A DNA stretch of 26,449 nt from a virus, in IMG/VR virus record IMGVR_UViG_3300048777_000084, positions 1 to 26,449 of that record. One strand, 5' to 3'. Of the stretch, positions 1 to 25,909 are shown one piece after another. The position numbers were made by a program, and so were the translations under genes. Each line of letters begins with the position of its first letter. Position 1 is the stretch's first letter. Under the pieces are notes generated by a model that was not told the origin of the DNA, searched no databases, and saw nothing but the letters and a program-made list of their open reading frames with translations.

Positions 1-691
1 ACGTGTAGCTGGCCGTTCCCACCAGCGCGACGAGGCGCATGATCACCTTTTTGTAATAGGCACCGCCCTCCGGTTGTGAAAAGACGGCCGTCCCCGAAGT
101 TGAGCCGCTCACCGTCGTCTGCCCGCTCCCGCCGGTTGCCGGTGCAACCCAGGTTGGCGCTGATCCGCTGCCGTTGGTTTGCAGTACGTCTCCGGAGGTG
201 CCGGCCGGGAGGCGTGTGGGCGCTCCGGAGGCACCACCGTAAATCAGATCGCCCTCGGTTGTCATGGGGTTTACAAAGGCGGCGCTCGGCGTCTGCCACG
301 TTGCCGCCGCGCTTCCCGTGGCCGTGGGCACCTGTCCGATTGACGGCGTTCCAGTAAGGGTCACCCCCGGCGGGATCTTCACCGCCGTCGCCGCAACTGA
401 GCCCACCCCGCTGGCCGTCACATCGCCGGTCAAGGCGGTGATTCCCGTCCCCGGCGGAACTGCAAAGGTTGCGTCCGCCTTCAGGAACTTCCCTGCGGCC
501 GCGGATCCGGCGCCGGGAGCCGGGACGTTGCCGGCCGATCCGCCGGACCCCGTATCCCCGATCATCACGGGATCGGTGGCGCTCACGTTGACGGTCGGAG
601 CCCCGGCATCATCCGCAAAGACGACGTTCTGTTTCCCGCTGGCCGGCGCCGGCGTGGCTGCATTGAAGTTCGCTTTGGCTGCTAGGGTCAT
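1..691 (-). CDS. tail fibre / structural repeat protein, C-terminus cut by window edge
   Basis: An open frame of 230 codons begins with ATG at 691-689 and runs off the left edge. A clear ribosome site (AAGGAG, 7 nt before the ATG) lies directly behind the stop of the tail-tip gene. The product is rich in Ala, Gly, Thr and Ser. Residues 83-135 ([13 protein letters not shown]... to ...ATWQTP) are almost identical to residues 30-82 of the small structural protein at 17285-17755. A second fibre-like segment ([10 protein letters not shown]...[13 protein letters not shown]) follows at about residues 140-175; this type of repeat is common in phage tail-fibre and appendage proteins. Placement after the tail-tip gene fits a fibre or side-fibre component outside the virion. 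The receptor-binding end, if there is one, lies outside the window. Fibre role is an inference from composition and position. Confidence 0.75.
287..445 (-). repeat. copy A of a 53-codon module shared with 17510-17668
   Basis: The encoded 53 residues differ from copy B at three positions only. At DNA level the identity is lower because of silent changes, but 32 bp (366-397 and 17589-17620) are identical. Confidence 0.85.
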
Positions 692-702
692 GGTCAAACT
701 CC

Positions 703-3700
703 TTATACACTACCGGGAACTCCGGTCGGCGTGTAGCTGTAGGCCGGCACGTCGGAGAGGCTCTGGAGAGCGGAGCCAAAGGTATTGAAACTGAGGAACT
801 TGAAGAATAGCTCCTGGCCGATATAGACCGCCGGCAGACTCATCTTGAGAGTGCCCACGGCAGTCGGATTGATCACGGCAAACCTGGATCCGATTTCGTG
901 ATCGATGCCGGCCCCGACCGAGCTGGGTGCATTGAAGATCGAACGGCGGAGATAGTTTCCGGCGCCGGTTGCCTTGAGGGTGTAAAGGTTGGCTCCGGTG
1001 AGCGTCGCGACGGCGTAGCTCATGAGCTCGTAACCGAAGCCATCCGAATCGTCGCTGGCCACATCCGCCCCATTTATCTGCAACCCGCCAATCTCCGCCA
1101 CCGCCGTCCCATTCACATCCAGTTCGAGGGGCTCGCCGCTGCCCGCATCCGTGCCATTCACCTGGAGACCGAAGGCGTCCCCCTCCACATAGCAGGGGAG
1201 TTCAAAATTATTCTCCGTCGTCAGACCAACGCTTTCGATCACGCCATCGGATTCAGTGACGTCGACAGCCAGATCATTCGTTGAATCCGGATCGGTGTCC
1301 GCCGGCCAGTCCGCGGTGAGGCGTCCCGTCACGGCCGAGCCGGTGATCACGTTTGAGTCGCCGTCGACGAAGCCCGGCGCCGCGTTGTAGCTTGCCCCGC
1401 CATCCGTTGAGACGAAGACCTGGCAGCCGCCGAATTGTGCGCTGGCACTTGAGACCACGCACCAGAGTTGCTCGCCCGTCAGGGATGGATAGAGTTCCGA
1501 CGTTGGCTCGAAGATGATCGGCGGGTTGATATCGCCCGCGCTGATATTCGTGCTCAGCGGGTTTTGGGCTGGCGGCACGGCGGCCAGGGCGGAGGGCGCG
1601 CACATCCCATAGACGAAGGGCTCCGCCGTGCCTTCAAATGAGCCATCGTCCTTTTCGTTGTAGCTGGTGATCCGGATGGGAGCATTCACCAGGCCCTGAA
1701 GTGTATCTGTGAGGGTTCCCAGGTCCATCGGCGAGAGGAGCGACCAGCGCGCGCTGGCGGTGAAGGCCCAGGAATCTCCGCCATACTGGTTCCGCCGCAC
1801 CATGATCCCGAGGAGCGTCCGGGCAACGCTGGAATCCTGCACGGCCATGTTTGTGATCGCATCGGCCTTGCGCTCGCCATAAAGCCCGATCGAAGCCGGA
1901 TCCGGAGTCTGAATCGTAACCTGGTTATAGTTTGCCGTCCGCTCCATGCACTGCATTTGCAGGACGTTGGGGAGATTGATCCGATCGGCCGGCGTAAGCA
2001 CCGGGCTTCCATCCGATCCAACGTAATCCCCGTTGAGGTCACTCAGGGCGAAAATCGGGCCGGCGGCCGTGGGTGCGGTGTAAAGAGCCCCATTTCCGGC
2101 GGCCGAGACTTCGGAATAGGGATAGAGAAACAGCTTGGCGCCCAGAAACACGGGAGCGGCATCCGCGGCCGCGGCAAGCGATTTGATCCAGTCGGAGGCC
2201 GCCGTCTGGCTCGTCATGGCCAGCGAGCCCCAGAGGCCGCCCGCGCGGCATTGCTGGCGCACCAGATCGAAGCTGGGGATGTCGATGTAATCGCCCAGGG
2301 GCCGCGGCCACGGGACGGGGTTCGTGTATTTGAAACTGAGAAGCGCGATTGCATCCGGCGTGGGCGATGGCAAGGGGAACGGATAGGCGCCCGGACTGTA
2401 TATATTCCGATATTGCAGTTGAAAGTTTGGCTGGATGCTGCCGAAAACATTCGCCGGCGCGCCAGGCTTCCAAAGCGGAACAGCCAAGGTCGCCGGAGCC
2501 GTGGGAGTCAGATAGAGCGGAATCGAGAGCAGGTATCCGGGGAAGCCCTGTTGCACCGTGCTGCCAATCGAAATAGGTGCCGGTGGAGTCGTGAGGCTGG
2601 GAACATCCGGGACGCTGCCCTCCGTGTAAGGGGGAAGTGGGAGAACCTGACCCCCCGGAAGGGTTGACGTACCGTATCCTGGACTTCCACCGGGAATGTT
2701 TGAAACTATCACACCTGGAATCGCCCAAGCCACGGACATGCCCGCGGGAATGGCCACAGGCAACGGCCCGTTCCCATTGTTGATGCCAGGGAGTAAAGGA
2801 TTCGGGAGCAAGGGATCGGTGTAATAAACCGCGAAGCCGGCGAAGATGAAACCTAAACCAGAGACTTTTTGGCCATCATAAGCACCACCGGGATTTGTGT
2901 TCCCTGAATTTGTCACCCCAATGGCAATGATCTGCCCTGTTAAATCAGAGAGCGAAGTTCCGATGCTTTGAATGCCCAGCGGGTCGAGCAGGTTGGGAGC
3001 TGGATTCCATTGCCCGCTGACCAGCACACCACGCCCCACAATCACGGGCGTTGCCGATGTTATCAGTGCATTAAAAATGCCACTGAGCGCCCCATTTGAG
3101 GCGGAAGTGATGCCTGGATTTGCGCCAACTGCCGTTACCGGGGGGGTCGCCGCTTGTGGGGTGGCTGGTGGAACAAGCGGGCCGCCGCCGTAAAAGGTCG
3201 TGTTGTAAGAAAGAGCGTCGCCCACGTACACGGGATAAATTCCCTGGATCGCCGCACCGGTGGGGATGGCAGACCAGAGACCAAAATCGTAGCAAAGAGC
3301 ATTGATCCCAAGGAAAGGTCCGGTCGAAGACATCCCCTTCTTTGTCATTTCTCCGGAGCCCTCGGGGACATTCGGCACAACGGAATCCAAAGCCAAGGCG
3401 GCGGCGCTCCCGCCTGGGCCGCCCACTTCGATAATTGCCGTGTTCCATCTGCCCGAGGATCCGGCAATTGTAACCGTGTTCTGCCCACCCACGGCCGGGG
3501 CCGTCCAGACCTGATAACCGAGGTTATCGCCAAAGACCGGCGTCCAGGTATCGCCGGCAGAGCTCGAAATGGAAAGCGTTCCCGCCGCCACAGCCACGGC
3601 CACCAGGTAGTTTCCGACCGCGTTGGGCATGTCATAGAGCATCGGCGGCAGAGCAACGGAGCCATTCTGATCCACCTTTTTCTGTACCGTGCCCGGCAGA

Positions 3701-6644: not shown

Positions 6645-7418
6645 TTAGAGCGGCGTCGGCCGCGCAGTTCTGAGTTTAAGCTGCCCGCTTCCATTCGCAC
6701 TTTCCGACCCGCCGATTGTCCAGTATCCGCCGCCCTGGCCCGCAACCCACTTGCCGGCGGCGCCCACGTTCAGGAACTTTTCGAAGTCCTGATTGTCTTC
6801 GGTGAATCGAACCCGGAAATAGAAATCAAACTGAGCCGTGATCGGGCCAGTTGGCGGGGTTCCGCTTCCCCATTTCAGATACAGGCCCATATAAGCATTC
6901 CCAGGGATCGCCAGACCAGGCCCCAGAACCTCATACTCGCCGGCGCCACTCCCGACAGAACATAGGCTGCCATTGGCATAAACCACGATCCCGCCGTTCA
7001 GGTCGGTGATGTCCTCGTAACTAACCCCGTCCAGCGTTCGCTGAATCGGCGAATAGTAATTGCCGGCACCATCGTTTACCAAGGCAAGCTGGGCCAGCGG
7101 GATATTCGGGGCTCCGCCCACCAGGGCTGGCCCCACGTTGCAATCATCCGGATCGGTGAGGAGAAAGCTGGCCGCCTGGCCCTGTTGAGCATTGAAAAAG
7201 CCCATCAAGGTACGGAGCTCAGAGACCGCGGTGAAGCCGCCCCAAAAGAAGTCATGGAGAAAATCGAACATCAAAAGCCATTCCCAACATGGGTTGGTAG
7301 TCTGCGGGAGCCGCACCTCATAATCGTTGGGTGCGGACTCGACCAGCGTAGACCACTTCGGCGTCTTGACCACCGTGAAGGTAAGGCCGGGAAGCGTTGG
7401 AAAGACAGGCAGACTCAA
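6645..7418 (-). CDS. DUF2460 distal tail protein (GTA gp12-like)
   Basis: This 257-residue protein matches the DUF2460 pattern from its first residues: VFPTLPGLTFTVVKTPKWST, then EVRLPQTTNPCWEWLLMFDF (about residues 34-53), ELRTLMGFFNAQQGQAASFL, and TDPDD at about residue 88. DUF2460 proteins form the distal tail ring joining tube and hub. The C-terminus is an added beta-rich segment (ITAQFDFYFRVRFTEDN) resembling the end of other distal tail proteins. The start is TTG at 7418, inside a TTGA overlap with the tape-measure stop, so translation is probably coupled. The preceding gene encodes the tape measure, the usual order. Confidence 0.9.
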   Translation of the reverse strand: MSLPVFPTLPGLTFTVVKTPKWSTLVESAPNDYEVRLPQTTNPCWEWLLMFDFLHDFFWGGFTAVSELRTLMGFFNAQQGQAASFLLTDPDDCNVGPALVGGAPNIPLAQLALVNDGAGNYYSPIQRTLDGVSYEDITDLNGGIVVYANGSLCSVGSGAGEYEVLGPGLAIPGNAYMGLYLKWGSGTPPTGPITAQFDFYFRVRFTEDNQDFEKFLNVGAAGKWVAGQGGGYWTIGGSESANGSGQLKLRTARPTPL

Positions 7419-9889
7419 GCGAAGGCCTCCGGTCTGAGCATACCCTTCAGCTTACTCATGGTTTGAGCGGTATGGGCCGCCAGCATATCCGGAGTGACGC
7501 CTCCGCCGAAATGATTCGTCTGGTTCAGCGTGGCGCTTCGCTGGCCGCCATTGTTCACCATGCTTTCAAAGTTCGAGGTTTGGCTCGGCGAGAGAATACG
7601 TTCGGGCGATCCGGAGCGATTGAAGGCCATGCTCATAGTTGGCAACATACCGCCCGTGTCATAATCGCCGGCCATGCCGATGAATGGCGCCATAGATGCC
7701 GTCATGGTGGTGGCCGCGCCCACCGCCAGGGCCGGCCCGACCACGGGGATCGCCGCCATGGCCGCCGCGGCACCCGTGGCCGCTACGGCGGCGTTGCTGG
7801 CGGCCGCTGCTACGTTCGCAACGCCTCCCGTGGCCTTGGCGGTGGCAAAGCCCAGGGCATCCATGACCTTGATTTCCGCCCACTGCTCTGCTTTTTGGAG
7901 GATCGTCTTGATCACGAAATCGGCCATCTGGAGTTCCATCTCTCCCAACATGTGGCCCCAGGCCTGTCCTGCCGTCTGCGAGTGAGTGGCCCAGGCATTG
8001 AAAGCTGTAGTCATATCGGAGTTAAACGTGGCCGAAGCCTTTTTCCATGCCTGATTGAACTTCTGCGCCTCCTGTTGTGTGATCTGCTCGCGCTGTAGCG
8101 CGGCCTTCCGCGCCTCGGCCGTGATCTTGTCCTCGACCGAAGTAAACTCTTGAAGCTCCTTTGGCCCATTCGTGGGATCAAATATCTGCTGCTCTTTGCG
8201 GAGTGCCAGGGTCATCATGGCTGCCTTAGTATTCTCGGCGTCCAGGAGTTCCTGGGTTGCCCGCTGGTGGCTTATCCGACCAAGCGTCTCTTCAAACTTG
8301 ATCTCCCGCTCGCGCGCCTCGAAGGTGTCATCGGCCGCCTTGATTTCCGCCTCGGCGGTTTCCCGAGCGGCGGAAACGCGCTCCTCCTGGGCTCGCTTGA
8401 ACTCCTCAACCGCATGTTTCTCGATCTCGGATTGGTGCTTCGCTTGTTCCTCAGCGGCCTTGGCAATTTCCTCTTGATTCTTTTTCAGCTCGGCGGTCCC
8501 GGCTGTGAACAGGGCGGAGTCGCGCTTGCGAACGCTGCCCTCATCTTCGATCACCCGCAACATCTCCCGCTCGGCCGCCGTTCCCTCTTTCGAGGCGGCC
8601 GCATTCTGCTTGTGCAGATCCAGCTCTTTTAGATACTCGGCATTGATCCGGGCCGCCACGGGAAGCGCCGCATCCGCCGCATGGGCCGCGTCGATCTGGG
8701 CGCGCGCTATCTGGCCCGGCATATTGTCGGTGGCGCCCGCTAACGTCTTGTCTGCGGCTGGTGGTTTGGGCACCACCGCCAGGGTGAGCTCTGTTATCTT
8801 CTGTGCATTCTCGGCCATGTGTTGAAGCGTGGCATCAATCTGGGCCTGAGTCTTGGCGGCATTCTGGGCCGCAACCTCGGGTATAGCACTCTCACCCGCG
8901 GGGAGTCCCGCTAGTCCCGTTGGGGCAAACTTGGCGATTCCCTTCATGAAAAGACCGCCGACAGAATCCCCCCTCGTGGCAGCCTTTAGAGAAGGATCGT
9001 TGGCAATCGCCTGTTCGAGTCGGAGTTGCTCCCGCAGCATTGTCAGTGTCGTATCGAGGGTGCGATTATTCGCGGTCAGAATATCGGCTTTTGCCTGTGC
9101 CTCGGCAACTGGCCCCTCTTTGATCCCCGTGATGGATGCCTGAATTTCCTTTTGCCGCTCGATCGATTGATCAACCTTGGCCTCGAACTCGACGGTATCC
9201 TTCTCGGTTTTCTTGATCTGATCCCCGAGGCCAACGAGTTGCAAAATGGCGCCGTCGAGCCAGCCGGTTCCGAGGGTATTACCTAGCTCTTCCGCCTCCT
9301 CAGTAAACTTGACTATCCCCTCCCCTACATCGATCAGGACCTCACCCAAGGCCAGGGCTCCAATCACCGGGAATGCTGCGCTAAGGACCTTTCCGAGGCC
9401 CAGCGTGTTTGAGAGAAACATACCGGCTGCACGGCTCGATCCCATGAGCGAACCTTCGAGAACTCGGACACCGCCCAGGGCCGCCTGTTGACCGGAAACG
9501 CCCAGTTGCCGGTTTGCCGCCGCCGCTTCCGCTGCTGCTGCTGCCGCTGCTTTAGCCTGCGCTTTGATTGCCGCCGCCGCTTCCGCTGCTGCTGCTGCCG
9601 CTGCGCGTTCAGATTGGACGAATCCATCAAGAACCGCCTGCGCGACCCTCAACGCCGCAGTGTCCTCGTCTACACACTGAGTGGCAAACTTAATTGATCC
9701 GGCACCCCCCCTGGTCGCATTGGTCAATAGCTCTTGCGATTGAGCCAAACGCAAGGTAGCAGCAGTGACGGCATTCTGAGCAGCGGCCATGTCTGCCGCA
9801 GAAGCCGTAACTTGCCCGGTAGCATCCGCCAGGCCGGCCGAGAGCCCGCTTGTGTCGGCCTTGATCGATACAATCAGTTCGTTTGGCAT
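7415..9889 (-). CDS. tail tape measure protein
   Basis: An 824-residue, Ala/Glu/Lys/Gln-rich, largely helical protein follows the chaperone genes. Residues 1-120 are Ala-rich coil (SGLSAGLADATGQVTASA), with two copies of a 37-bp direct repeat. About residues 165-195 are hydrophobic (GKVLSAAFPVIGALALGEVL). Residues 430-610 are charged coiled coil. Residues about 680-740 are a Gly/Ala-rich hydrophobic stretch, and the end (DYDTGGMLPTMSMAFNRSG, SPERILSPSQTSNF) has the GG...P.RILS pattern common at tape-measure C-termini. The protein should fill the tail lumen, set tail length and leave first during DNA ejection. By the usual rule of about 1.5 angstrom per residue, the tail would be near 120 nm. 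ATG at 9889 follows GAGG and overlaps the chaperone stop by 16 bp. Confidence 0.93.
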   Translation of the reverse strand: MPNELIVSIKADTSGLSAGLADATGQVTASAADMAAAQNAVTAATLRLAQSQELLTNATRGGAGSIKFATQCVDEDTAALRVAQAVLDGFVQSERAAAAAAAEAAAAIKAQAKAAAAAAAEAAAANRQLGVSGQQAALGGVRVLEGSLMGSSRAAGMFLSNTLGLGKVLSAAFPVIGALALGEVLIDVGEGIVKFTEEAEELGNTLGTGWLDGAILQLVGLGDQIKKTEKDTVEFEAKVDQSIERQKEIQASITGIKEGPVAEAQAKADILTANNRTLDTTLTMLREQLRLEQAIANDPSLKAATRGDSVGGLFMKGIAKFAPTGLAGLPAGESAIPEVAAQNAAKTQAQIDATLQHMAENAQKITELTLAVVPKPPAADKTLAGATDNMPGQIARAQIDAAHAADAALPVAARINAEYLKELDLHKQNAAASKEGTAAEREMLRVIEDEGSVRKRDSALFTAGTAELKKNQEEIAKAAEEQAKHQSEIEKHAVEEFKRAQEERVSAARETAEAEIKAADDTFEAREREIKFEETLGRISHQRATQELLDAENTKAAMMTLALRKEQQIFDPTNGPKELQEFTSVEDKITAEARKAALQREQITQQEAQKFNQAWKKASATFNSDMTTAFNAWATHSQTAGQAWGHMLGEMELQMADFVIKTILQKAEQWAEIKVMDALGFATAKATGGVANVAAAASNAAVAATGAAAAMAAIPVVGPALAVGAATTMTASMAPFIGMAGDYDTGGMLPTMSMAFNRSGSPERILSPSQTSNFESMVNNGGQRSATLNQTNHFGGGVTPDMLAAHTAQTMSKLKGMLRPEAFA
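9514..9604. repeat. 37-bp direct repeat (two copies) in the tape-measure gene
   Basis: Identical 37-bp copies lie at 9514-9550 and 9568-9604, 54 bp apart, so each unit adds exactly 18 residues. They encode Ala-rich helix (EAAAAIKAQAKAAAAAA type). Gain or loss of a unit would keep the frame and change tail length by a small step. Confidence 0.9.
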
Positions 9890-17284: not shown

Positions 17285-17755
17285 TTAGACGAGGACCGTA
17301 GCCTTCCAGGCCGTCCCATTGTAGATGTAGAGGGTGCCGGTCGCTGGATCGAAGGCCATGGTGCCAGATGCTGGCGTGGTAGATGGCGCGCCGCTGGTGG
17401 CCGGAATGGTGCCGGCAAGAACAACCCCGGCCGGAATGGAAACCAGCGTGGCGGCCGCCGATCCAGGGCCGCTAGCGGTCACGTTGCCGGTTAGCGCCGT
17501 GATGCCCGCGGGCGTCTGCCAGGTTGCGGCAGCGGCGCCGGTGGCTGTTGGCACCTTCCCGATGCTGGGGGTGCCGGTGAGAGTAACGCCCGGCGGGATC
17601 TTCACCGCCGTCGCCGCAACCGAGCCAATCCCGCTGGCCGTCACGTCGCCGGTTAGCGCCGTGATCCCTTCGGTTGTCTGGAGAGCCTGGACAGCAAGCA
17701 CCAGCGCATTGAGCGTTTTTTCAGGGGAGGCTGGATTCGGAAGAATGAGAGTCAT
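17285..17755 (-). CDS. repeat-containing head decoration or fibre protein
   Basis: The 156-residue protein is Ala/Thr/Gly/Pro-rich. It has two tandem copies of a repeat beginning GITALTGxVTASGxGSxAAT (residues 30 and 84) and ends with SGTMAFDPATGTLYIYNGTA, a pattern seen at the ends of phage fibre and appendage proteins. Its residues 30-82 match residues 83-135 of the left-edge fibre gene at 50 of 53 positions. It lies between the portal block and the protease-scaffold gene, so a head-fibre or decoration role is more likely than a tail one. ATG at 17755 follows GGAGG at 10 nt. Confidence 0.7.
   Translation of the reverse strand: MTLILPNPASPEKTLNALVLAVQALQTTEGITALTGDVTASGIGSVAATAVKIPPGVTLTGTPSIGKVPTATGAAAATWQTPAGITALTGNVTASGPGSAAATLVSIPAGVVLAGTIPATSGAPSTTPASGTMAFDPATGTLYIYNGTAWKATVLV
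17510..17668 (-). repeat. copy B of a 53-codon module shared with 287-445
   Basis: Same orientation as copy A and about 17 kb from it. Copy B lies in the small head-region protein, copy A in the left-edge fibre gene. Many silent third-position differences show that the duplication is old or that the copies came from different phages. Confidence 0.85.
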
Positions 17756-18853: not shown

Positions 18854-21190
18854 TCAATCCTCCTCAGTTGGTTTGAACTTCGATGCCGTGAGCCAGCACC
18901 TACAGAACGGATGCGCGCCGGGAGCCCAGATCATCGGGGCGAATTCATAACCCACGGGAACCGAGCCCAGCATGGAAAAGCTGAAGCAAAGCGGACAGCA
19001 GCCCAGATCCGCCACCGTCCAGGTGTACTCAAGAACCTTACCGCTTGAGAGCCAACTCTGTAAATGGCCGCTTGCCTGTTGCCGGGTGATCTCATTATCC
19101 GCGATCATGGCGGCGTGATCCTCGCTGAAGAGATCAAGCTGTTGGATTCCGGCCTCAAGGTCCGCCGGGCTCCAATCCTCTCGGATGGCCTGCTTGATCG
19201 TTTCCAGGACGTTAGCCTTGGCGGTCGTCGACATGGCCCATTGCGCCGCCGGATCCTCCACCAGCGCGCCGGTATCATCTTTCTTGAGGCCCACCAGCTC
19301 CGCCGCGCGATCGGCGGCCGCCGCCTTGGCCTTCCCCAGTGAAACTTCGAGGACATCATTCAGGTTGGCGCCCTGGTGGGCTGCCATCTGATAAGCGCCG
19401 GCCTCGGCACCCTGCCCGGCCGCCTCCTCCATGTAAGGCAGTACGGCGGCATAAAGATCCGGATACTGCCATTGCAGCATGGCAAGAATCACCAGAGCCT
19501 TGTTCCGATCATCCTCGGCGTCGCCCTTGGCAAGCTTTCCGCCGCCGACCGCCTTCTGAGCGATGTACTCGCCCCGTGCCGCCTTGGCGACCCTCATCCC
19601 CTGGTTCTTCAGGAATTGGCCCAGCTTGCGATCCATGGCCTGGCGCGCTTGAGTGCTCCGCGGCGTCAGATCGCCGGCCACGATCTTGAGGGCGGCCGCC
19701 TTCCGAACCTTGTTTCGGGCCGCGCCGGATTGTGGCTGCTGCCCCTTTGGCGGCGTTCCATCATCCTCCGGATCCGCATTAGGATCGGCGACCGGCGCAT
19801 CCAGCGGAACAAAGCCGGTTGCCGTGGTGATTCCCGGTATGGCGCCCTGGGGAACGCCCAGCGGATCATCTCCATTGGCCTCCCGGATCTCATCCCTGGT
19901 GTAGGTTCCCGAATTGATGTAAGCGACGTCCACCTGGCTTTTTTTGAGCGGATCCACCTCGCGCGCATCGGCGAAGGCAAACTCTACGTCCTCCGCGCCC
20001 AGGCCCAACTCGATCACCCGATTCAGTTCAACCTCGATGTGCTTCAGAATCGGCTCCAGGCCCTCCTCCTGGCTCGTGTCGGTTTGCTCCTTGTTGGTTG
20101 ACTGGTGGCCAACCTGCTTGACCAGATTCGATGGCGAAATGCCGAAGGCGAAGGCTACAACCCGGATAAGGTACTCGTCCGTGGTATCCGTGAGCGCCTC
20201 GGTCTTTGAAAACTGGATGCCCTTTTTGGTGTCCGGAACAATGAGAATCCGGCGCTTGCGCTGCAAGTTGCCGGCCAGGATCGAATCAAACCAGTTTTGG
20301 AATTCCTTGATCTGTTTCGTGTCCCACGTCTCCGGGACACTCAAGAGGCCCTCGGGGACGTTGCCGCTGGTGTAATAGCTCCGAAAAAACGTCTGGCGGT
20401 TGGCAGCAATGGCGAGCGTGGTGACCATCTGCTCGATCGGACCGAAGCCCCACCGGCTGTTATTCCTCGGGTTCATCGGCGAGTAAAACAGCGCATCGGC
20501 CGCGAAGCCCTTTTCCGATCCCTTTCCGTCTTTCGTCTTTTGCCAGCCCGCGGCGATCATGTTCGAGGTGGGGATCCCCAGAATGATCTGCTGAAAGGCC
20601 GGGCTCGGCGGCATCGGAACAAAGCCCTGTTGATCGACCAGCGGCGTGATCGTTGTTCCGCTGATTGTTCTGAGAGCCATCACGTCCCCCAGCATGTTCT
20701 GAACCGGGGAAATCACCGGCGCGTCATACACCAGAAGATCCTCCAGCCACATTCGGATCCACTTATCGAAAGGGTGGTATCCATCCGGGAAGCGGAGCAA
20801 CTTTGAGACGCGCGCCACGTTAGGCGTCGTACCCTCCCGCTTGAGCCTCTGGGCCTTGAGCTCGCCGGGCTGGGTCTTGACCCTGATCACCCAGGGCCGG
20901 TTGACAACCTGGTTTTTTCTACGCTCGATGATCAGCCGGCAAAGGTCGAAGCTGTTGGCCACGTTGTTTAGTTGCTGAAAGGTGATGGGAGAATCGCCGC
21001 GGGGCGTGAAATTGAGGTTGATCCCGGGGCGGAAATCCCAGGTTCGGACGCCGGTGGCAAGCTGGGCGGTTGGCCGGATCGGATTATTCGGGCTCGCCCA
21101 GGATGATGGGTTGACGCCCTCAATCAGCGTGCCGGCCGGCCGGAACATCGGCGCGAAGGCCTCTTGTACGGATTTCACGAAACTGGCCAT
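18854..21190 (-). CDS. portal protein fused to MuF-like minor head domain
   Basis: The 778-residue product starts at ATG 21190 with AGGAGAGG upstream; an earlier in-frame GTG overlaps that site. The N-terminal 430 residues are portal: FQQLNNVANSFDLCRLIIER, an EDLLVYDAPVISPVQN segment, MNPRNNSRWGFGPIEQMVTT, then FAFGISPSNLVKQVGHQSTN, and TRDEIREANGDDPLGVPQG at the end of the portal part. A linker follows (NADPEDDGTPPKGQQPQSGA). The last 150 residues form a MuF/SPP1 gp7-like domain: ITRQQASGHLQSWLSSGK, WTVADLGCCPLCF, and HPFCRCWLTA. Separate portal and MuF genes are more usual. The portal is the dodecameric DNA gate at one capsid vertex; MuF-type domains ride inside the head. Confidence 0.92.
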   Translation of the reverse strand: MASFVKSVQEAFAPMFRPAGTLIEGVNPSSWASPNNPIRPTAQLATGVRTWDFRPGINLNFTPRGDSPITFQQLNNVANSFDLCRLIIERRKNQVVNRPWVIRVKTQPGELKAQRLKREGTTPNVARVSKLLRFPDGYHPFDKWIRMWLEDLLVYDAPVISPVQNMLGDVMALRTISGTTITPLVDQQGFVPMPPSPAFQQIILGIPTSNMIAAGWQKTKDGKGSEKGFAADALFYSPMNPRNNSRWGFGPIEQMVTTLAIAANRQTFFRSYYTSGNVPEGLLSVPETWDTKQIKEFQNWFDSILAGNLQRKRRILIVPDTKKGIQFSKTEALTDTTDEYLIRVVAFAFGISPSNLVKQVGHQSTNKEQTDTSQEEGLEPILKHIEVELNRVIELGLGAEDVEFAFADAREVDPLKKSQVDVAYINSGTYTRDEIREANGDDPLGVPQGAIPGITTATGFVPLDAPVADPNADPEDDGTPPKGQQPQSGAARNKVRKAAALKIVAGDLTPRSTQARQAMDRKLGQFLKNQGMRVAKAARGEYIAQKAVGGGKLAKGDAEDDRNKALVILAMLQWQYPDLYAAVLPYMEEAAGQGAEAGAYQMAAHQGANLNDVLEVSLGKAKAAAADRAAELVGLKKDDTGALVEDPAAQWAMSTTAKANVLETIKQAIREDWSPADLEAGIQQLDLFSEDHAAMIADNEITRQQASGHLQSWLSSGKVLEYTWTVADLGCCPLCFSFSMLGSVPVGYEFAPMIWAPGAHPFCRCWLTASKFKPTEED

Positions 21191-21242
21191 GATCACCCTC
21201 TCCTAATCGGGTCGGAACCCGCTCAGAGGCATGATACCAGTC

Positions 21243-23623: not shown

Positions 23624-25909
23624 TCAGTTCTGGCCGGGCCTGGGCAGCCGGCACTTGAAGCAAACCTGCTTGTCGCCTATAGTAATCCAAACTTTCGACC
23701 CGCAGGAACAAATATCTCGATTCGATCCGTCAAAGAGGATCCGATTCTCAGGCAGCGCCGGCACATGCCCCGCCTTGGCGGCGCCCTCGGCCTCACCCTT
23801 GGCCCAGCCGGCCCATCCGCTCGTTCCTTCACATAGCTCCGTCACGGCCCACACCAGAGCGTCCATTCTATCGGGCGAGTCCTTATCCGTTGCCGGCGCC
23901 CAATTCGTCTGCTGATCCTCAAGTTTGGCCAGCATCCCGACATGATGGACGCGCCCCTGCTCATACATGGCGCTCACGGGCTCGGCACGGATCGCCTTGC
24001 CTCGACTTGCATGGACAGCCTTATAGGACACGTTGCTGTCCTGGGTGCGGAGATTGGCCTCCACCAGGTCCCCGCCATTGTTCACCTCACCAACGATGCG
24101 ATCCGCCTGCCAGCGGTGGTAAGCCGTGATCGCCACCTTCGCCCACTCATCCGGGGTATAGATTCCGCTCAGATCCTCAAGCACGTACACATGCACCGGC
24201 TCGCGCCCATCGATCGCGGCCACGATGATGCCCGTCTCGTCGCTGTCCTCTTTGGCGCTCACGGCCGGATCGATCGCCACGACAATCCGGATCAACGGCG
24301 GCGCCGTCCGGACGCGCGCGGCCTCTATCAGTGCCAAGTGGAAAAGCGCGCCGGGGTTGTCATCCAGCACCTCAGCCAGGAGCTCCTGGCGGCCCAGCCG
24401 CGTTCCCTCATATGCCGTGATGATTTTCGAATAGAAGCCCGGCGCCAGGTTGGGCCGGTTCTCGTACGTCGTGCCGCGGGTGACGATCACGGTCGGATTC
24501 TCACTCTTTGAATCCGCTATCAGCGCCTTGATCAGCTTGATCGGCCGCGGCGTCGTCGTCACGACCGCCTGGGGACTGTTCCCGAGCCGAAGCCCAAACA
24601 TGGCCTGGTCCCATGCCTCCTGGGCATATTTCCAAGAGGCAGGCTCATCACAATTGTGAACAATTATGCCGTTGGCGATGAATTCGTGATCCCGTTCAAC
24701 CGCTAGGTTGTAAACCGCCTGATTTCCAACGGGCTCCCAGGTTGACGCAACGCTGACTGCAAAACCCACCCTTGCGAGACTGGAAGGGCGCCGCGCAATA
24801 AAGACATATTCTGGCGACCTTCCTTTTCTCATCCGCGATCCTGCGGTGACAAACCACGCATTTAGGCGCCCTCGTCCGAGCTTTGAGGATAAGCGCCTTC
24901 CCACACTTGCAACAGTTCGCCGGGTACCGACGCTCGCTGAGACCATGCTTCTTTCGGGTCGGAGCGTGAAGCGCTTGATGCTGCTGGTGTGTAAGGCATT
25001 CGAGGTTGCAGATGTCGTTATTTGACCTATTCCGGTCCCTGTGGTGAATCTTGCATTTCGGCGAAATAATCCCGTGCGCCCGCTCCCAAACCCAGCGGTG
25101 CTGATAAACCGCCCGTCTCTTTCCGTTGGGCCTTTTCTCGCCAATGTAGGCGAGAATGTAGCCGTCGCGACGTTTTGCCCAATGAATAGCCCGCCGAGTC
25201 TCGTCCATCCACAAGATGTTAACACCGGATGCTCGCTTGTCCCGATCAATTCTGAGCCATTGGAAAAAGTAACTTTCCCGACCTCCGCGACACGCTCCAA
25301 CACCGAGGCCACCGCGCTGCTTCCTTGTCGAGTCAACACTATATCTGCGGGACGCAAGGATTCTATAGAGACTGGTCCCGACGGCGTGGCCACCATCGTC
25401 CCGGCAATAAAGCACCAGAGCTTCTGGTGCTGTTTGCCGCGGAGCCGGTCCGGCTCTTCGGCCGAGAATAGTAGCGTCCGGGATCCATCCGGCCAGGTGA
25501 GCCGGCGCTTTGATACCTGATATTTTGGCCGCTCGCCCCGCGGGCAGATGGCCAAGATTCCACTCTCGCCCTCCACCATCACGTCGCGGAGATCATCCGA
25601 CGTCGGCGCAACAAAATTGACGCGGGAATATCCCTGCCGTTTCCAGATCCGCACCGTCTCCGCGCCGGTGCGCGTCTTGCCGTATCCGCGGCCGGCCAGG
25701 ATCAGCCAAACGGCCCACTCGCCCAGGGGCAGCGTCTGGTTCGGCCGCGCCCAGGAGGGCCAATCGTAAAAAAGCGCCTCAAGGTCTTGATCCGGAACTG
25801 ATTCCAAAAGAGCCCGCAGGTCATTGGATGGTTTCCGCTGGAGCCTCAACCTGTCGAATAATTCTCTCAATGATGTCCCCCCGATCGACGGGCTGGAATA
25901 ACGGGCCAT
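23624..25909 (-). CDS. terL: large terminase subunit, interrupted by an intein
   Basis: The frame is 761 codons; removing intein residues 166-419 leaves 507, the normal size. ATPase part: Walker A LAGRGYGKT (71-79); Walker B is rebuilt by splicing as KLW|CDEPASW (the intein sits just before C420, DE is the catalytic pair); motif III VTTTPRP (449-455). Nuclease part: D547 in VAIDPA, E608 in VGEV, D683 in DRMDALVW, the three metal-binding acids of the RNase H fold. A Cys pair set at the end (C734, C736, C750, C753) forms a likely zinc knuckle, which is unusual. It cuts concatemeric DNA and pumps it through the portal. ATG 25909 overlaps the small terminase by 89 bp and has no ribosome site; a TTG further in is possible. 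Confidence 0.95.
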   Translation of the reverse strand: MARYSSPSIGGTSLRELFDRLRLQRKPSNDLRALLESVPDQDLEALFYDWPSWARPNQTLPLGEWAVWLILAGRGYGKTRTGAETVRIWKRQGYSRVNFVAPTSDDLRDVMVEGESGILAICPRGERPKYQVSKRRLTWPDGSRTLLFSAEEPDRLRGKQHQKLWCFIAGTMVATPSGPVSIESLRPADIVLTRQGSSAVASVLERVAEVGKVTFSNGSELIGTSEHPVLTSCGWTRLGGLFIGQNVATATFSPTLARKGPTERDGRFISTAGFGSGRTGLFRRNARFTTGTGIGQITTSATSNALHTSSIKRFTLRPERSMVSASVGTRRTVASVGRRLSSKLGRGRLNAWFVTAGSRMRKGRSPEYVFIARRPSSLARVGFAVSVASTWEPVGNQAVYNLAVERDHEFIANGIIVHNCDEPASWKYAQEAWDQAMFGLRLGNSPQAVVTTTPRPIKLIKALIADSKSENPTVIVTRGTTYENRPNLAPGFYSKIITAYEGTRLGRQELLAEVLDDNPGALFHLALIEAARVRTAPPLIRIVVAIDPAVSAKEDSDETGIIVAAIDGREPVHVYVLEDLSGIYTPDEWAKVAITAYHRWQADRIVGEVNNGGDLVEANLRTQDSNVSYKAVHASRGKAIRAEPVSAMYEQGRVHHVGMLAKLEDQQTNWAPATDKDSPDRMDALVWAVTELCEGTSGWAGWAKGEAEGAAKAGHVPALPENRILFDGSNRDICSCGSKVWITIGDKQVCFKCRLPRPGQN
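24653..25414 (-). mobile_element. intein in the terminase Walker B site
   Basis: A 254-residue intein. Block A starts with Cys1 (CFIAGTMVATPSGPVSIESL); block B GTSEHPVLTSCGW at 58-70 has the TxxH motif (TSEH); blocks F/G end VYNLAVERDHEF...GIIVHN with the final His-Asn, and the next extein residue is Cys. All splicing residues are present, so it should excise. Between about residue 86 and 222 the in-frame sequence is Ser/Thr/Arg/Gly-rich with no fold signs, while the -1 frame carries an HNH endonuclease. Confidence 0.93.
24696..25208 (-). CDS. HNH homing endonuclease in the -1 frame inside the intein
   Basis: 170 residues from ATG 25208; the frame is open further up to GTG 25415. Motifs: RDGYILAYIG (14-23), HRWVWERAHG with His37, KIHHRDRNRSNN (53-64, with His55/56 and Asn60), NLECLTHQQHQALH (68-81), the pattern of an HNH/beta-beta-alpha-metal nuclease. 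Two Cys quartets follow: C99/C102...C117/C120 and C135/C138...C150/C154, likely DNA-binding zinc fingers. The frame is -1 relative to terminase and intein. It ends in the intein block F. No clear ribosome site precedes ATG 25208, so its translation is unclear: internal start, -1 slip, or not made at all. The expected role is to cut intein-free terminase genes and spread the element. Confidence 0.85.
   Translation of the reverse strand: MDETRRAIHWAKRRDGYILAYIGEKRPNGKRRAVYQHRWVWERAHGIISPKCKIHHRDRNRSNNDICNLECLTHQQHQALHAPTRKKHGLSERRYPANCCKCGKALILKARTRAPKCVVCHRRIADEKRKVARICLYCAAPFQSRKGGFCSQRCVNLGARWKSGGLQPSG

Follow-up and report, generated by a model that had tools for sequence, protein, structure and literature searches.

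Analyses of the large terminase subunit (TerL) gene in the window, which was the whole IMG/VR virus record IMGVR_UViG_3300048777_000084 (26,449 bases), indicated that the gene very probably contains a mobile intein in which the homing nuclease gene lies out of frame and is expressed separately from an internal start. Based on the sequence and the structure models, the reading that best accounts for the locus is that the host frame encodes a cis-splicing intein with a passive linker and that a free homing nuclease would be produced from an internal start. In the terminase frame, a HINT domain is predicted to be interrupted by about 120 disordered residues at the place usually held by a nuclease, and this intein would splice in cis. 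An HNH nuclease bearing two zinc motifs would be produced on its own when the -1 frame of the linker DNA and the beginning of block F is read from an internal start close to where block B ends. Protein splicing of the intein would restore the terminase, and the nuclease would presumably cut intein-less terminase alleles, into which the whole segment would then be copied. More than 100 related phage inteins were built alike, and we therefore consider the arrangement to be a conserved two-frame mobile element, not a sequencing error. The features of the locus are given in Table 1.

Table 1. Features of the terminase locus in the window, and of the helicase inteins with a nuclease in the +1 frame.
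Feature	Position	Strand	Evidence or remarks
TerL precursor	23624..25909	-	Open frame of 761 codons (761 aa), uninterrupted across the intein; Terminase_6N/6C
TerL N-extein, last residues ...LRGKQHQKLW, Walker B site	25415..25909	-	Intein-less relatives continue LRGxQ....W-CDE
Intein, 254 aa, C1...H253 N254	24653..25414	-	Intein_splicing/Hint_2, alignment, AlphaFold HINT fold
HINT N-terminal splicing half, residues 1-89	25148..25414	-	AlphaFold, pLDDT about 95
Intein-frame linker, residues 96-215, nuclease coding shadow	24770..25129	-	AlphaFold, pLDDT about 40
HINT C-terminal splicing half, blocks F and G, residues 218-254	24653..24763	-	Alignment; AlphaFold, pLDDT about 95
TerL C-extein, first residues CDEPASW (Walker B acidic pair), includes nuclease domain	23624..24652	-	Terminase_6C
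HNH nuclease ORF, -1 frame relative to the intein, 170 aa	24696..25208	-	Presumed start ATG 25206-25208, TGA 24696-24698; Pfam, PHROG
HNH_3 catalytic region, YQHRWVWE...KIHHRDRNRSNND...NLECLTHQQH	24975..25106	-	Pfam HNH_3, E 1.2e-14
First Cys4 zinc motif, C99, C102, C117, C120	24849..24914	-	Invariant in 21 homologues
Second Cys4 zinc motif, C135, C138, C150, C154; CSQRCVN invariant	24747..24806	-	21 homologues; overlaps the approach to intein block F
Helicase inteins, open host frame, nuclease in +1	L120:3001-3831; L133:3001-3813; L164:958-2022; L226:687-1556; L239:3001-4113		

Pfam searches with the TerL frame identified Terminase_6N (1.2e-20) and Terminase_6C (1.6e-14), plus Hint_2 and Intein_splicing. 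The intein directly precedes the Walker B acidic pair (...LRGKQHQKLW/CDEPASW, the slash marking the insertion point), with C1 at 25412-25414, N254 at 24653-24655 and the Cys+1 residue at 24650-24652. The residues expected of a splicing intein, namely C1, T59-x-x-H62 of block B, H253-N254 and C255 (Cys+1), were all present in the alignment and were invariant or nearly so. The AlphaFold model of the intein frame had a predicted HINT fold, with a TM (target) of 0.86 to the gp41-1 intein and a Foldseek probability of 1.00, and in the same model the linker was predicted to be disordered and had no secondary structure.

The ORF in the -1 frame matched Pfam HNH_3 as well as PHROG 15471 (1.5e-19), the best of the PHROG HNH families, and it encodes an HNH core followed by two Cys4 motifs. 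Across 21 homologues, down to 32% identity, H37, H56 and H77 were invariant, as were eight of the eight zinc-motif cysteines, and N64 and N68 were nearly invariant. The AlphaFold model of the HNH frame had a pLDDT of 89, and its best PDB match, a weak one (E 0.014, TM 0.36), was I-HmuI, an HNH homing endonuclease of a phage group I intron with which it appears to share the HNH fold. I-HmuI is encoded in an RNA intron, unlike the nuclease here. Based on our reading of the two AlphaFold models, the nuclease occupies the usual HEN insertion place of inteins. These results confirmed what a preliminary description of this DNA had reported: a terminase-intein frame open throughout with its splicing blocks intact, which the 761-codon frame, the Pfam matches and the splicing residues all bear out, and a -1-frame HNH nuclease with two Cys4 zinc motifs, whose coordinates were good and with which HNH_3, PHROG and the conserved cysteines agree. 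The description had also placed a coding shadow at intein residues ~86-222; the shadow is present, although the linker in the AlphaFold model is slightly narrower than that extent.

The two-frame layout was also found in relatives. A first scan with the HNH protein as the query reached 30 loci. Wherever the intein region was complete, the intein frame was fully open and the HNH was encoded at -1, and this held down to about 30% identity. Scans with an HNH profile, an intein profile and a nuclease-blind mini-intein profile gave a family set of 145 distinct inteins (<90% nucleotide identity). In 117 of the 145, which are related loci and so do not count as independent events, the HNH was at offset -1 inside an open intein frame, and in none of the 145 was it in the intein frame, as the nuclease of a canonical large intein would be. 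The remainder were 20 mini-inteins, six long inteins without an HNH of this family and two with a nuclease match at +1, and the N and C splicing halves were in the same frame in every case. Isolate genomes with the same layout were those of Tetrasphaera phage TJE1, Acinetobacter phage Highwayman, Rhodobacteraceae phage LS06 and Beijerinckia mobilis. A search of phage records with the intein-frame protein gave no match. When 385 genomes of the host class were searched, the one match was the Beijerinckia genome itself, and the element thus looks to be mainly phage-borne.

These comparisons bear on the possibility of a sequencing or assembly error, in which an in-frame intein-nuclease had been broken by two compensating single-base indels. 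Such an explanation would be in keeping with inteins normally carrying their nuclease in frame and with the occurrence of indels in metagenome assemblies. However, the same intein DNA was identified in two other IMG/VR contigs, one of which was identical over 5,751 nt and the other of which had 3 differences in 5,751 nt, all outside the intein. The same offset was found in 117 distinct loci and in isolate genomes, and there was no in-frame relative, and we give an error almost no credence. The preliminary description had left two options, a true dual-coding element or a pair of compensating indels or read errors near 25165 and 24745. The second is excluded by the relatives, the independent contigs, the isolates and the phase-keeping indels described below, while the first is supported by the recurrence of the -1 offset across the family and the isolates. 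Among the homologous terminase inteins we saw neither conservation of the intein frame only nor restoration of a single frame.

In the window alone, there were 0 stop codons in the overlap against 0.36 expected (P=0.64), which was not significant, and at this single locus an open frame could have arisen by chance. Chance was ruled out by the family, as the intein frame of the overlap in 111 related loci had 0 stops against the 206 expected from synonymous shuffling of the HNH codons. The third frame of the same 111 loci had 1449. In addition, the intein-equivalent frame of eight free-standing or fractured-gene HNH homologues had 1-13 stops, versus 0 in that of four intein-borne ones. Sampling bias toward open frames was also considered as an explanation, and was countered by the 34 distinct loci reached by HNH queries, which had 0 stops in the intein frame, and by the use of the nuclease-blind mini-intein query. 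Since terminase translation has to pass through the overlap, stops would have been purged from the intein frame along this whole segment.

As overlapping frames break the assumptions of standard dN/dS, substitution rates at each codon position were used in its place, in 16 independent related pairs. Intein codon position 3 was the fastest in both the N-terminal block (0.337 vs 0.122-0.166) and the C-terminal block (0.248 vs about 0.09), and in the overlap the HNH wobble position, equivalent to intein position 2, was the fastest (0.335 vs 0.151 and 0.176). The change-over occurred near intein nt 240-270, and the rates changed back 90-120 nt before the end. All indels in the 16 pairs preserved the phase of both frames and none was phase-shifting. 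Together, the codon-position rates indicated purifying selection on each frame in its own segment, and the peak at the HNH wobble position indicated that the overlap is mostly a stop-free linker in the intein frame, with its protein information in the HNH frame.

It was considered whether the element might be decayed, with a formerly in-frame nuclease that was frameshifted long ago and is non-functional, and with selection on the intein frame only. Three loci (L029, L030 and L031) without most of the HNH would be consistent with decay. Against this, the HNH frame and not the intein frame set the substitution pattern of the overlap in 16 of 16 pairs, and the HNH residues and eight zinc cysteines remained invariant among divergent homologues, and we regard decay as very unlikely. 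The three loci (L029:2685-3134, L030:1231-1761 and L031:894-1298) are HNH deletion derivatives in which both frames are in phase, so that splicing would outlive the nuclease; the mini-inteins L029 and L031 have retained the intein frame after the loss of most of the HNH.

We infer that the conserved -1-frame HNH is translated separately from the terminase, and internal initiation would be the best-supported general mechanism on the sequence evidence. A start codon was located after the last upstream -1 stop in all 111 loci (101 ATG, 8 GTG and 2 TTG), at a median of 8 codons past that stop and near intein nucleotide 249. Shine-Dalgarno-like (SD) matches of at least 5 nt were found at 27 of the 111 starts, or 24 of 88 after clustering, versus 4.7% of control ATGs. 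At the same positions in mini-inteins without the HNH, a match of at least 5 nt was found in 11%, and one of at least 4 nt in 30% compared to 53% of HNH loci; the SD signal is partly artefactual because the conserved Gly-Asp codons of block B contribute to it, although an enrichment remains. In the window, the ATG at 25206-25208 is the likely start codon and has an SD match of only 3 nt.

Programmed -1 frameshifting from the terminase frame would instead produce a fusion of the TerL N-half, the intein N-half and the HNH that ended at the HNH stop. Bacterial frameshifts most commonly go in the -1 direction, which is also the invariable offset of the HNH, and such a fusion is physically possible in the window, where the -1 frame continues open ahead of the HNH. 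In-phase X XXY YYZ heptamers were present within the allowed stretch in 26 of 111 loci. However, no heptamer was present in that stretch in the other 85 or in the window, and none was conserved across the loci, and on these grounds programmed frameshifting was rejected. The start codons in all 111 loci and their SD-like enrichment, the +1 frame occupied by a second nuclease family and the existence of homologous HNH genes that stand free with their own starts also make frameshifting unlikely, and internal initiation is the mechanism we favor.

The insertion sites of these inteins were mostly in TerL, at the Walker B site (LRGPQH..W/CDE) and at the C-terminal nuclease motif (DH/CDALRY), with a few others. 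Many TerL relatives had an empty site through which the gene read straight. At the Walker B site, the similarity of the splicing domain was correlated with that of the HNH (rho 0.74), versus 0.35-0.45 for either with the exteins. Pairs with 37-42% extein identity had splicing domains that were 64-86% identical, and in many pairs both the intein and the HNH were more alike than the exteins. The empty sites and the discordance between intein and extein fit mobility, for which homing would be the probable route based on these sequence comparisons.

HNH proteins adjoining terminase genes assist packaging in some phages, and free-standing relatives of the HNH studied here were found beside terL in Acinetobacter BP10, Pseudomonas PAE1, Exiguobacterium EauM-23 and Shemara. 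These relatives would be consistent with a real two-frame layout in which the HNH aids phage DNA packaging, not homing. However, the scattered presence at several TerL sites and the greater similarity of inteins than of exteins fit mobility, and the site is empty in many phages; a packaging role thus seems improbable, and we favor a homing nuclease. The free-standing proteins of BP10, PAE1 and EauM-23 belong to the same HNH and zinc family, with 32-48% identity to the intein-borne members, but are located outside any intein, and their intein-equivalent frame contains stops.

Several loci contained more than one intein. Two different HNH-bearing two-frame inteins were present in one terminase gene (L016:1060-1878 and 2557-3351) and on one contig (L019:4005-4835 and 6826-7587). 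At L194:2071-3459, one Walker B site held two nearly adjoining inteins, of which the second was a mini-intein a few codons downstream of the first.

Fractured genes, in which a free-standing nuclease gene is between the halves of a split intein, were reportedly described by Dassa et al. in 2009. As proposed here, their nuclease is translated alone from within an intein-interrupted gene, and homologous HNH proteins were identified in Lactobacillus CL2 and Vibrio 1.238.A which, along with Brochothrix BL3, have the HNH in a terL gene with a broken host frame. In fractured genes, however, the host frame is broken and trans splicing is required, whereas in the window the nuclease overlaps a continuous host frame, and neither an interruption of that frame nor two separately translated intein halves were found. 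In Vibrio phage 1.238.A (L250), BL3 (L253) and CL2 (L255), the annotated TerL stopped early and was followed by a hint-domain or small ORF, and these loci probably contain split inteins flanking an HNH gene that goes unnamed in the annotation. At L231:3001-4314, the host frame had 18 stops across an HNH gene flanked by related intein halves, and this locus resembles a fractured gene with a split intein. It is plausible that free-standing genes, fractured genes and two-frame inteins form a series, which would run in that order.

Canonical large inteins have the HINT domain, the insertion in a host active site and the nuclease at the conserved HEN place (PMC6801210) in common with the element in the window. 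In those inteins, however, the polypeptide includes the nuclease as one of its domains, while in the window the nuclease is read in another frame and the intein polypeptide has a disordered linker. An HNH-type intein with an in-frame homing endonuclease is credited to Dalgaard et al. (1997) in PMC5050341. In the ShiLan domain and the Pacc40 insertion of phage methylase genes, reported in 2025, a zinc-finger HNH is encoded in the alternative frame of an insertion that is open in the host frame (PMC11855218), as we found here. No splicing domain is detectable in ShiLan, which is believed to remain part of the host protein, whereas in the window a complete HINT domain surrounds the nuclease. Among 5.4 million open-licence papers, we found no description of an out-of-frame nuclease that overlaps a complete cis-splicing intein, the only near precedent being the ShiLan report.

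Five long inteins at the DEAD/DEAH helicase motif (VIxDE/C) had a DUF559/REase_MTES_1575 (Vsr-like) nuclease in the +1 frame, with Pfam DUF559 values of 3.9e-8 to 2.8e-6, and Hint/Intein_splicing spanned the open host frame in both of those checked. These are apparently a second two-frame family that is independent of the HNH one, and the presence of two nuclease families in two different frames suggests that the layout arose at least twice. We think it probable that two-frame inteins represent a widespread class of mobile element that is common in phage terminases, with splicing and homing assigned to different frames of the same DNA and carried out by two separate proteins. The class would have arisen at least twice (HNH in -1 in terminases and DUF559/Vsr-like in +1 in helicases) and would connect classical inteins with fractured, split-intein genes and with homing genes that stand free.

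How inteins gain and lose nucleases is an old question, and two-frame inteins would be a natural third state beside the in-frame and split-gene ones, whose layout would let the nuclease be expressed, evolve and decay apart from splicing. They would also explain why annotators see a terminase or a nuclease but not both. In addition, they would offer many natural examples of overlapping genes on the same strand, in which the sharing of one DNA sequence by two proteins could be examined, and would supply inteins able to accommodate disordered insertions of about 120 residues.

Two further observations were made elsewhere in the window. The separate ORFs at 17285-17755 (-) and 2-697 (-) have a common 54-residue segment with 93% identity, as if a structural segment had been copied within the phage. 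The portal protein at 18854-21196 (-), of 780 aa, has a long C-terminal extension ending in Cys/His-rich motifs; Pfam supported the portal part only, and the extension may be a fused head-morphogenesis (MuF-like) domain.
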